64,000 nt of DNA from Halomarina oriensis (GTDB lineage Archaea; Halobacteriota; Halobacteria; Halobacteriales; Haloarculaceae), in the NCBI RefSeq assembly GCF_009791395.1, contig NZ_WSZK01000001.1, positions 1 to 64,000 on the forward strand, written 5' to 3'. Below are positions 56,862 to 60,546 of this stretch, one piece after another. The notes beneath the pieces are model-generated. The model was not told the DNA's origin, did not search any database, and saw only the letters and a program-made list of their open reading frames with translations. The stretch's first letter is position 1. Each line of letters starts with the position of its first letter. Position numbers and translations under genes: made by a program.

Positions 56862-57487
56862 GGCGACCGAACGTCTCCCGCCGGGGTAAGGACGGGCGTT
56901 GCACGAGCGGGGTGGGGTCGCTCGGTCCGGCTCCACTCCCGTGCTACCGTGACGACTCCGCCGTCGGCACCCGCATCGTCGCCGTCGCCGCTGGAACGGG
57001 CACCGACTTGCCGCCGCTCCCGCCGCCGCTGGCCGACGAACTGGACGTCGACGCGCTCGGGCCCTCGGTGCGACCACGGGGACGATGGCCGTCTCGTTCA
57101 CCGTTCGGGGCCACCGAACCACGGTCCGTCACGGTCGCGTCTCCGGCGCGCTCGGCTCACTCTCACCCCCAGCGGTAGTTTCTTCACACTCGGTGGAGTC
57201 CCCTGGCACAGGCTCGCCGGTGCATCGTGCACGTCGACACGTCGAGCACACTGACTCATCACGGTCAGTCGTCGGGATTTCCGACGGACACTCGGACGCG
57301 TGGGAATGTCGACCGAACTCCACGGACGAAAGGGCTTCACGTAAAACCGTCCGCGAACGGAGCGCATGCGGTATGTCGCGTCCGAGTGTCGGCTGCGGTC
57401 GGTCGGTGCGCGTCGACGGGACGCGATACTGACTGGGCCGCTTTCTCGACGACGCTCCGTGAGGAGCGCGACGTTCGTCCCAGAAGT

Positions 57488-57506
57488 ACCCTCTCGGAGA
57501 GAGGGT
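57488..57506. repeat. Perfect 8-bp hairpin ACCCTCTC-GGA-GAGAGGGT
   Basis: An 8-base stem with a GGA loop in DNA without genes. It could end a transcript or be part of a small RNA. No T-run follows on either strand. Confidence 0.4.
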
Positions 57507-58073
57507 GGGCTTCACGTGGGGCGATGACCGCCCCGGCGAGTGTCGAGGATTGCGACGATATGAAGCTACCGCGTTCTCGTCGCCCTGTCCCCTGTTCACA
57601 CACTCGACTGTCGACCACCGTCCTCGTCGTCGGCCACCGCCGTCGTCTCGACCCCTCGACCGCTTCGAGCGCGGTTCGTAGCCGCTGGCTCCCGCGAATC
57701 GTCCGCTGACGACGGCGCTCGCCACGTCGACCTGAGCGGGCGTCCGCCGACCGGCGACCCGCGTCCCCCCGCGTTCCCGCCTCGCCACCCTGTCACCGGC
57801 CGCACCCCACACGCCACGACGCATCTGCCGAACGACACGTGTAGGGTTCACAGACGAACGTCCCGTCGACGCGCCCGAGCGGTAGGCCCCTCGAAACGGC
57901 ACCAAAAACCACCGCCTAGCCGCTACGTTTATCCACTCCTGCCAACACGTTCTCGAACTCAGAGGTGTCTCAGAAGCCCCGTAACGGCAGATAACGTCGT
58001 ATTAAGCGCCTCTCCCCGCTGTTTAACCTCGTGATATTCTCGTGGCAGTGAAAGTTTGGAATTTAGGATAGAC

Positions 58074-58080
58074 TTATATT
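58074..58080 (+). promoter_or_regulatory. TATA box of the pilin operon
   Basis: TTATATT, preceded by the AT-rich run GAAAGTTTGGAATTTAGGAT. A start site about 25 bases downstream would give an mRNA leader of about 165 bases before the pilin ATG at 58269, unusually long here, where most genes look leaderless. A weak alternative (CCATAAGCG, 58215-58223) would give a shorter leader. Confidence 0.5.
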
Positions 58081-58143
58081 CCCCCAGTCGTGTAGGTGTA
58101 ACTGAAGCGAACCCGACGCTCAGGACGAAAGTGAAAGGAAGGG

Positions 58144-58163
58144 GTCGTGGGTCACACCACGAC
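58144..58163 (+). promoter_or_regulatory. Hairpin in the pilin leader (GTCGTGG-n6-CCACGAC)
   Basis: A perfect 7-base stem with a GTCACA loop lies between the TATA box and the pilin ATG. If the leader is transcribed, this hairpin could affect stability or translation. A weak AGGAAC, 6 bases before the ATG, may act as ribosome-binding site. Confidence 0.4.
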
Positions 58164-58268
58164 GCCCGTAATCGCCGCGCTTTCGCGCACTATCAGGCCA
58201 TTCTGTGCCTCGCGCCATAAGCGTAGCGGCTGGACTCCTGTCACGCGGGTCGCTACAGGAACGAAACA

Positions 58269-58445
58269 ATGATTCAGCAACTCAAGACACGGTTCGACGC
58301 GGACGACAGAGCGGTCAGTCCTGTCATTGGTGTGATACTTATGGTGGCCATCACGGTCATCCTCGCGGCAGTTATCGCCTCGCTGACACTCGGTCTGGGC
58401 GACTCCGCACAGACCGCACCGACGGCGAAGTTCGACTTCGAGCAG
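58269..58445 (+). repeat. 177-bp direct repeat, copy 1 (copy 2 at 58698-58874)
   Basis: The first 59 codons of both pilins differ at only 4 of 177 bases by eye, all silent. After base 177 the two genes diverge sharply. The length spans the leader peptide, the membrane helix and 20 residues beyond it. It is a substrate for recombination between the two genes. Confidence 0.9.
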
Positions 58446-58697
58446 ACTGGTACTCTGTCTGATGGCACTGCTGAGGTTACGGTATCTCACGCAAGCGGTG
58501 CGACAATCGCAAATGAACGCGTTGACGTTGTCTACGGCACCGATGACGAAAAATTCGGTGAAGAAGTTAGTGCAGGAACCTCCACGGTCGTGGACTCGGG
58601 TGAAATATCCAGCGGAAGTGCTGAGGAGATTAAGGTCGTCTGGACGAGCGAAGACGGCTCCACCAGTACCGTGCTCGCCACCTACCAGATTCAGTAA
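58269..58697 (+). CDS. Type IV pilin (PilA-like), first of a tandem pair
   Basis: 142 residues. A short charged leader MIQQLKTRFDADDRA is followed by VSPVIGVILMVAITVILAAV, the haloarchaeal pilin N-domain; the prepilin peptidase PibD should cut before VSPV. The membrane helix packs the filament core, and the beta-rich C-part (about 55-142) faces outward. Past codon 59 the codons are far less GC-rich than in neighbouring genes (many GTT, GAA, GCA, AAT). The TAA stop touches the ATG of the second pilin with no gap. Confidence 0.9.
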   Translation: MIQQLKTRFDADDRAVSPVIGVILMVAITVILAAVIASLTLGLGDSAQTAPTAKFDFEQTGTLSDGTAEVTVSHASGATIANERVDVVYGTDDEKFGEEVSAGTSTVVDSGEISSGSAEEIKVVWTSEDGSTSTVLATYQIQ

Positions 58698-59258
58698 ATG
58701 ATTCAGCAACTCAAGACACGGTTCGACGCGGACGACAGGGCGGTCAGTCCTGTCATTGGTGTGATACTTATGGTGGCCATCACGGTCATCCTCGCGGCAG
58801 TTATCGCCTCGCTGACGCTCGGTCTGGGCGACTCCGCACAGACTGCACCAACGGCGAAGTTCGACTTCGAGCAGGAAACTGTCTCGTACGACGATGGTTC
58901 GAATAGTTACGATCTCAAGACTGTATCTATTTCGCATCAGTCCGGTGCATCTATCGATGAAGGTCGGCTCAAGCTCGTCGTCAACGGTGACACGGCATAC
59001 GATATCGACAGTAGCGGCAACGTTGCAGGCCTCTTGACCAACAGCGGTCAGGATGCCACTGCTGGTTCGTCGTACGAAATCCAGCTTAGCTCGTCTTCGA
59101 GTATCAGCGGTGCAGTTAGCGTCACTACGGACGGGAGCGGCGATCCGAACGGTGTTGACAAAGGCACTCCACTCTCATCGGACGACACAATCAAGCTTGT
59201 CTGGACGTCCGAGGACGGAGGTACGTCTTCGACGCTCGCCACCTACACGGTCCAGTAA
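58698..59258 (+). CDS. Type IV pilin (PilA-like), second of a tandem pair
   Basis: 186 residues with the same N-terminal 59 residues as the first pilin, then a longer, different surface domain (VSYDDGSNSYDLKTVSISHQ, LKLVVNGDTAYDIDSSGNVA, SSSISGAVSVTTDGSG). It ends with TIKLVWTSEDGGTSSTLATY and TVQ, close to the first pilin's KVVWTSEDGSTSTVLATYQI. So start and end match while the middle differs. Co-transcribed, with its ATG right after the previous stop. Low GC at third positions again. Confidence 0.9.
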   Translation: MIQQLKTRFDADDRAVSPVIGVILMVAITVILAAVIASLTLGLGDSAQTAPTAKFDFEQETVSYDDGSNSYDLKTVSISHQSGASIDEGRLKLVVNGDTAYDIDSSGNVAGLLTNSGQDATAGSSYEIQLSSSSSISGAVSVTTDGSGDPNGVDKGTPLSSDDTIKLVWTSEDGGTSSTLATYTVQ

Positions 59259-59370: not shown

Positions 59371-60546
59371 CTACGCCCTGCGCTCCCGGTCGGAGTGACA
59401 CGACCGACAGAGCGTGACGAGGTTCTCCAGCCGGTTCGCTCGCCTCGCCGAGTCGAACGCCCGGCGCTTCGTGACGTGGTGGACGTGTAGGCCACCGGAG
59501 TCCACGCGTCGGTGTTCCTCGTCGCTCGTCCCACAGTCCTGGCAGGCGTAGCCGTCGCGCTGTAGTGCCTTCTCGCGCTGTTCGGGCCAGTTCGGGCCGT
59601 ACTCGACTGGTCCCTGTGCTTCCTCGGGACTCCGATACGGCGTGAACCCGGCCGCTTCGAGCGCCGCGCTCCACGACCCGAAGCGCTGGACGAACGGTTC
59701 GTGAGAGTACTGGCCCACCTCGTTCACGTCGTCGCGGGTCGGCGCTCGCTCGACCACCGCCGCGACACGTTCGAGTTCGGGCAGCAGGTCCTCACGCGAG
59801 AGTCGTCCGGCGAGCAGTCCGTCCCGTCGGTCCAACCCCGCTGCTTCCCACGCCCCCGTCCACGACCCGAACGCGCGGATGTAGGGGTCCGACCAGAACT
59901 CCCCACGCTCGTCCATCTGCTCGCGCGTCGGCGCGTAGCCCAGTTCCTCGGCCAACTCCTGGAGTGCTGCTACCAGTCGCTCCTCGTCGTAGTCGTTCTC
60001 GTGGTTCGGGTCGTATCCGGCCGCACGAAGCGCGTCGTTCCACGAGTTCCACACCCGGTAGTACGGGCGGTGTGAGTACGCGCCGAACTCCTTCATCTCC
60101 TCCTGTGTCGGGGCGTGGCCGAGTTCGTCGCTCGCGTCGTGTAGCGCCATTGCGAGCGCTTCGGCGTCGATTCGCTGCGTCGTCTCGGTCCGTTCCTGCA
60201 ACCCTGCGGCCGCCCGTGCGTCCGGCCACGAGCCGAATCGGCGGTGGTACGCCGACGCGGAGAACGCACCGTGCTCGTCCATGTCGGCCATCCGTGGGAC
60301 GCGCTCTACCGCCTCGGCCACTCGACGCAACTCGTCGCACAGTTCTCGCTCGCTCACCTCGTTCCGGTGGTTCGGACCCATCCCCGCCGCGGCGAGTGCG
60401 TCGTTCCAACTCCCGAACTCGGTGTAGTACGGCTGTGAGGAGTAGCGCCCCTGTTCGTCCATCTGCGTCCGAGTGGGCGTTCCGTCGACCGCTTCCGAGA
60501 GGTCGCGCAGTGCGTCGAGGAGGTCGTCGCGGGAGATACCGCCCAT
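59371..60546 (-). CDS. HNH endonuclease with five homing-endonuclease-associated repeats
   Basis: 391 residues. Five repeats of about 48 residues at 7-55, 68-115, 130-177, 190-237 and 253-300 each have L..L......G..PT...M...G.(Y/F)S..(P/A)Y...FGSW..A..AAG; the period is 60-63. An HNH nuclease domain follows (about 301-391) with CQDC at 335-338, HVHH at 354-357 and CRSC at 380-383. The repeats probably read DNA in a modular way and position the nuclease. It is not inside another gene. Convergent with the pilins, 112 bases apart. Confidence 0.88.
   Translation of the reverse strand: MGGISRDDLLDALRDLSEAVDGTPTRTQMDEQGRYSSQPYYTEFGSWNDALAAAGMGPNHRNEVSERELCDELRRVAEAVERVPRMADMDEHGAFSASAYHRRFGSWPDARAAAGLQERTETTQRIDAEALAMALHDASDELGHAPTQEEMKEFGAYSHRPYYRVWNSWNDALRAAGYDPNHENDYDEERLVAALQELAEELGYAPTREQMDERGEFWSDPYIRAFGSWTGAWEAAGLDRRDGLLAGRLSREDLLPELERVAAVVERAPTRDDVNEVGQYSHEPFVQRFGSWSAALEAAGFTPYRSPEEAQGPVEYGPNWPEQREKALQRDGYACQDCGTSDEEHRRVDSGGLHVHHVTKRRAFDSARRANRLENLVTLCRSCHSDRERRA

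Follow-up and report, generated by a model that had tools for sequence, protein, structure and literature searches.

Why do two adjacent archaeal pilin genes begin with almost the same DNA and then go on to encode quite different surface domains? The question is raised by a locus in the window, by which we mean the whole stretch of 64,000 nucleotides that was analysed; contig C1 of a haloarchaeal genome of 4.07 Mb begins with it. Here the stop codon of a first gene, pilin A, occupies 58695-58697 and the ATG of a second, pilin B, begins at 58698, so that the two genes abut without a spacer, as the preliminary description of this DNA had stated. The features of the locus are given below, where C27 is the contig of the same genome that carries a second tandem pair (A2 and B2), G006 is a sister species and G007 is a further genome of the genus.

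58058-58083, forward strand: promoter-like block GGAATTTAGGATAGACTTATATTC with TATA-like ACTTATAT, from the alignment of the C1, C27, G006 and G007 leaders
58084-58268, forward strand: long 5' leader of the pilin pair, with a hairpin at 58144-58163; homologous to the C27, G006 and G007 leaders
58269-58697, forward strand: pilin A, PilA-type archaeal type IV pilin of 142 aa (PF07790 Pilin_N, E 2.8e-21; TIGR02537)
58269-58445, forward strand: putatively homogenised 5' module, copy A (probable donor), with 4 silent differences to copy B
58446-58634, forward strand: exposed domain of A, the variable middle; relative on C27: A2 (E 1.1e-10)
58698-59258, forward strand: pilin B, PilA-type archaeal type IV pilin of 186 aa (PF07790, E 3.9e-22)
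58698-58874, forward strand: putatively homogenised 5' module, copy B (probable recipient)
58875-59195, forward strand: variable middle of pilin B; relative on C27: B2 (49% identity, 128 aa, E 1.1e-26)
59196-59258, forward strand: C-terminal motif WTSEDGGTSSTLATYTVQ of B, common to both pilins as protein, DNA not homogenised
59371-60546, reverse strand: convergent neighbour with five HNH repeats and a C-terminal HNH domain (PF18780, E 2e-94; PF01844, E 1e-7)

Upstream of the pilin promoter, at 57180-58057, lies about 0.9 kb without an evident gene.

Over their first 177 nt, A and B differ at four positions only, all of them silent, as had been counted by eye (gene positions 42, 120, 147 and 153; AGA/AGG, ACA/ACG, ACC/ACT and CCG/CCA). 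Identity along the genes ends at codon 60, where the alignable part of the two pilins also ends, and upstream of the ATG the two have no sequence in common. The middles are unlike in length and sequence, again as first described, with whole proteins of 142 and 186 aa and about 23% of middle residues in common. The last 20 or so codons had been called alike as well, which is true of the protein (WTSEDGxTSxxLATYxxQ; 58635-58697 in A) but not of the DNA, which has diverged: 5 of the 13 shared C-terminal residues have a silent codon change, compared with 4 of 45 in the 5' core (Fisher p = 0.02), and A2 and B2 give 6/15 for the C-terminal motif and 3/45 for the core (p 0.005). In the A/B pair, near-identical DNA is limited to the 5' end. 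Chance can be excluded as the source of this likeness, because haloarchaeal pilins from unrelated loci differ at a median of 14 of 29 third positions in the segment where A and B differ at one, and an assembly artefact is unlikely because the pattern recurs in A2/B2 and also where the genome is a single contig (L204, L211).

That A and B are pilins follows from several comparisons. Both score well above the cut-off of the Pilin_N profile PF07790 (76.6 and 79.3 bits; cut-off 25.2), TIGR02537 matches them at E 2e-13 to 4e-13, and each has a class III signal peptide with an H-domain after the cleavage site. A predicted model of B (mean pLDDT 76.8) consists of a helix at residues 18-40 followed by beta strands that form a beta-rich domain. 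Its best solved match is the Haloferax volcanii pilus 8fj5 (E 1.3e-8), and its top three PDB matches, which are the only significant ones, are the haloarchaeal pili 8fj5, 8gi2 and 9myg from Haloferax volcanii and Natrinema J7-2; a sequence profile search with the pilin reaches the same entries. Judged by sequence and predicted fold, A and B are haloarchaeal PilA-type type IV pilins, for which processing by PibD and assembly are predicted. The bacterial N_methyl pilin family PF07963 was ruled out, with no match anywhere in the genome. The near-identical codons 1-59, and with them the 5' module of A, run from the signal peptide through the H-domain helix and the linker to halfway along the first beta strand, while the rest of the head differs.

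The deciding comparison is with the second tandem pair of the same genome, A2-B2 on contig C27, which stands behind a leader homologous to that of C1, agrees with A-B in gene order and has genes of similar lengths. A2 and B2 themselves share 110 consecutive identical nucleotides. In a comparison of the four genes over a 135-nt part of the 5' module, A and B agree against A2 and B2 at 13 sites, and at no site do A and A2 agree against B and B2; the tree that groups sequences by locus is better by a delta lnL of 43.6, and both alternative trees are rejected (AU p about 2e-6). The middles are related by type: that of B matches B2 at 49% identity over 128 aa (E 1.1e-26) and A2 in its last 30 residues only, and the best match of the A middle is that of the C-terminal part of A to A2 (46% identity, E 1.1e-10). 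In a protein tree of the middles alone an A-B grouping is not significantly rejected (AU p 0.15), and the orthology that we assign to the middles across C1 and C27 from their sequences rests mainly on B-B2, together with gene order, length and leader. Since the B-B2 and A-A2 middles are homologous and stand in the same order, genes of A type and B type would predate the split between the C1 and C27 loci; and since the grouping follows locus in the 5' modules and type in the middles, each locus would have homogenised its own 5' modules after that split. Same-locus paralogues are thus more alike than orthologues, silent sites included (13:0), after a duplication that, by B-B2, A-A2, order and leader, and with the middle-only AU p of 0.15, is older than the locus split, which is the pattern of concerted evolution.

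Of the gene conversion of conserved ends that the preliminary description proposed, the 5' part is upheld by these site counts and tree tests (13:0; AU p about 2e-6), and the 3' part is not seen in A/B. Purifying selection in place of exchange had been expected to leave the same two middles with normally diverged ends; the middles are indeed the same, and the ends, contrary to that expectation, are near-copies specific to each locus. The four silent changes in 177 nt and the abutting genes might also suggest a recent tandem duplication after which one copy's middle diverged very fast. We regard this as very unlikely, given that the B-B2 and A-A2 homologies place both middles before the near-identity and that C27 repeats the pattern with a 5' sequence of its own; were B2 supposed to have been copied from C1 to rescue the idea, the 13 locus-specific 5' sites would speak against it.

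The same comparison bears on whether the locus could undergo programmed antigenic or phage-receptor variation fed by silent donors, as in Neisseria pilE/pilS. An exposed variable domain between conserved ends would suit such a system, and pilins have been proposed as virus anchor points in haloarchaea (PMC7921747), but the two middles initially taken to be switched recur at C27, with their order unchanged and a homologous leader before them, and so are stable paralogues. Nor were silent pilin cassettes found: a DNA search of the assembly (4.07 Mb, 99.6% complete) with the 5' module and with each middle brought up A, B, A2 and B2, all four of them intact, and nothing else. With both genes of the pair intact and in one operon behind the leader, programmed variation seems extremely improbable. 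The low third-position GC content that had been pointed out in the middles is real (GC3 of 0.45 in A and 0.57 in B, with 0.62 and 0.65 for the whole genes and 0.83-0.96 for surrounding genes). It is no sign of the outside source once read into it, because low values are usual in haloarchaeal pilin middles, 91 of 125 of which lie below their neighbours in a count that uses a rough estimate for the neighbour genes. A candidate conversion across the C1 and C27 loci, seen as a longest difference-free run of 11 of 45 third positions, was not significant (p 0.087) and was set aside.

The start of the module gives some indication of the direction of copying. In G006, where the pair also abuts, pilin A starts MIQKLKARFDADDR and pilin B starts MIQKIIGQYKTEDR; at C1, A starts MIQQLKTRFDADDR and the first 36 nt of B are identical to it. 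These 36 nt agree with pilin A of G006 at 31 positions and with its pilin B at 20. The signal peptides of A2 and B2 differ from each other, and the B genes of G006 and C27 are unlike C1 B in this region. From these few sequences, A was probably the donor at C1 and overwrote B as far as the start codon, signal peptide included.

Is such homogenisation peculiar to this genome? We assembled 94 distinct tandem pairs from 79 loci of other species together with searches of the genus and family; the sampled pairs are phylogenetically non-independent. Within the H-domain, neighbouring pilins differ at a median of 6 of 29 third positions, as against 11 of 29 for pilins from other loci of the same genome, and neighbours were the more alike in all 14 genomes compared (14/14; MWU p 2.5e-6). 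At equal C-terminal similarity, which served as a proxy for pair age, neighbours still have 5.3 fewer third-position differences (within-genome permutation p 5e-5). Third-position identity in the 24 closest pairs stays high between about codons -9 and +38 of the H-domain and has dropped to background by about codon +42. A core with at least 86% identical codons is combined with middles of less than 40% identity in 12 of 93 pairs, among which A/B is one of the most extreme. Quartets of two loci favour grouping by locus in our own case (13:0) and for L122/L185 and L045/L062 (8:0 each), and grouping by orthologue for the Haloferax loci L074/L086 (0:7) and L057/L119 (1:5) and for L027/L070 (0:7); the orthologue grouping is favoured in 7 of 17 cross-locus quartets, and this mixture implies that homogenisation is episodic, not constant. 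Some other haloarchaeal pairs are alike at both ends (L063, L103, L073 and L185). A row of three pilins at L126 (genome G150) has one signal peptide throughout and near-identical first 165 nt (145-151 identical), with differing middles and a C-terminal motif common to two of the three. Plasmid records held no copy of the A/B pair, only H-domain-sized matches.

The same-genome control also weighs on the idea that the 5' ends stay alike with no exchange at all, through selection acting on silent sites by way of mRNA signals or codon choice. The H-domain protein is under extreme constraint, and rare codons such as ATA are common to all four pilin genes of the genome, as that idea would have it. 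Yet at 13 sites the codons agree between neighbours and differ between C1 and C27, other haloarchaea have no general ATA-CTT preference at the positions concerned, and neighbours are the more alike across all the control genomes (14/14; p 5e-5 once C-terminal similarity is allowed for), so we find selection of this kind scarcely credible as the whole explanation. Near-identity at silent sites that is specific to the locus requires copying besides constraint. The ATA-CTT rare codons were considered as a general RNA or translation signal and rejected, ATA being rare there in other haloarchaea.

The pair is preceded by a conserved leader (58058-58268 with its promoter block), whose counterparts lie at C27:32552-32732, G006:C1:1446606-1446761 and G007:C9:612791-612993. 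The C1 leader is 87% identical to that of G007 over 202 nt and 76% identical to that of C27 over 181 nt. Promoter and leader are confined to this genus (3 of 146 family genomes), and the promoter-like block is conserved before four pilin loci of the genus. In the leader fold 6 pairs changed on both sides among 4 sequences, with a net covariation term that is not favourable, and the stem of the hairpin at 58144-58163 varies between loci; no Rfam match was found at E up to 1. The leader is possibly a regulatory leader RNA, four sequences being too few to prove covariation.

In G007, the C1-type leader (87%) is followed by a single unrelated pilin and two genes, for a protein of 153 aa and a PMT_2-like membrane protein of 613 aa, and this two-gene module resembles that of G001, whose leader differs. 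This suggests that whole pilin modules have been replaced behind the leader between species, although quartet tests were not significant. In both genomes (L236:8001-11800 in G007 and L238:6400-10260 in G001) a single pilin, a protein of about 155 aa and a PMT_2-like membrane protein of about 615 aa are followed by an HNH-repeat gene, and the module is perhaps an alternative to the A-B pair with a pilin-linked glycosyltransferase.

It could be asked whether A and B arose in a comparable way, the 3' part of a duplicated gene having been exchanged for an incoming middle by recombination inside the conserved H-domain, between loci or species. The varying pilin content behind the conserved leader (G007) and the fast divergence of middles within the genus would fit such cassette replacement. 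We nevertheless consider it unlikely, since C1 and C27 agree in A-B order, lengths and leader, so that C1 needs no new middle; the discordance between leader and coding sequence is no more than suggestive (AU p 0.06-0.23, not significant), and neither a donor nor a silent cassette was found in the genome.

An HNH-repeat gene lies 112 bp downstream of pilin B. Genes related to it are found close to pilin loci in G001, G004, G006 and G007, another, different HNH-repeat gene comes after A2-B2, and the outer flanks of the genus pilin/HNH-repeat loci are mostly not syntenic. At the genus loci L235-L238, an HNH-repeat (PF18780) endonuclease-like gene is found repeatedly downstream of pilin loci. As a general feature of pilins this linkage was rejected, occurring outside the genus at 1 of 79 pilin loci and 0 of 26 HNH-repeat loci. 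Within the genus it may have been inherited from a common ancestor, or pilin loci may be broken by an endonuclease of homing type. The more specific proposal, that a putative free-standing homing-type HNH endonuclease cuts pilin loci and so gives rise both to 5' conversion and to replacement of whole modules behind the leader, strikes us as distinctly improbable; if it were true, an archaeon would have in its pilin locus a display site driven by recombination. An Orc1/Cdc6-type gene (L038:10027-11028) lies about 1 kb beyond the HNH-repeat gene that follows A2-B2, and C27 (40.7 kb) may be part of a plasmid or secondary replicon.

Taken together, the locus is very probably a two-gene PilA-type operon in which the 5' modules are homogenised by occasional ectopic gene conversion and the exposed domains are kept different. 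Non-reciprocal copying between the adjacent genes, presumably gene conversion by homologous recombination, would leave near-identical signal peptides, membrane and filament-core helices and linkers; it would stop at the end of the 5' module, where the middles offer no homology; and purifying selection on the filament core would tolerate it. Both pilins would thereby keep their fit to one assembly machine of PilB3-C3 type and present two heads.

Several known systems share parts of this behaviour. PilA1-PilA6 of Haloferax volcanii likewise combine an almost completely conserved H-domain with divergent exposed parts, and are encoded by several genes, some adjacent (the PilA3-PilA4 operon), that are not co-regulated with the biogenesis genes (PMC4371748, PMC7921747). 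H-domain replacement there abolishes piliation, and the identity of the PilA1-6 H-domains was published at the protein level (PMC4371748), whereas the near-identity seen here is specific to the locus and takes in silent sites and the signal peptide as well. In the concerted evolution of tuf, mtrA and fla, paralogues of one genome also exceed orthologues in likeness, silent sites included (PMC6053082), but at our locus one domain is homogenised and the rest of the gene stays different; that survey of prokaryotes lists 26 genes, with pilins absent and methanogens the only archaeal cases (PMC6053082). Neisseria pilE/pilS similarly undergo gene conversion and have a conserved pilin N-terminus beside a variable surface part; there, silent copies give variable parts to one expression locus, whereas here the conserved part would move between two intact genes. 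The VARTIG modules of Thermococcales are archaeal surface-type proteins whose variable domain is attributed to recombination (PMC8416519). In these the C-terminal Ig domain varies between strains (PMC8416519), in contrast to the stable middles and mobile N-terminal module proposed here. In the literature searched, we found no account of conversion between archaeal pilins. Concerted evolution is a known process; what is new is that it is restricted here to the part of a surface-filament gene that serves assembly.

Identical H-domains in haloarchaea are usually read as the outcome of purifying selection alone, and the silent sites point to copying between neighbours as well. Where the module is copied in this way, trees, dates and orthology calls drawn from pilin N-termini would mislead. 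Efficient gene conversion between genome copies has been described in polyploid Haloferax (PMC11276520), and tandem pilins would let ectopic gene conversion be followed in its natural setting in a polyploid archaeon; their filament core and displayed head would evolve as separate units.
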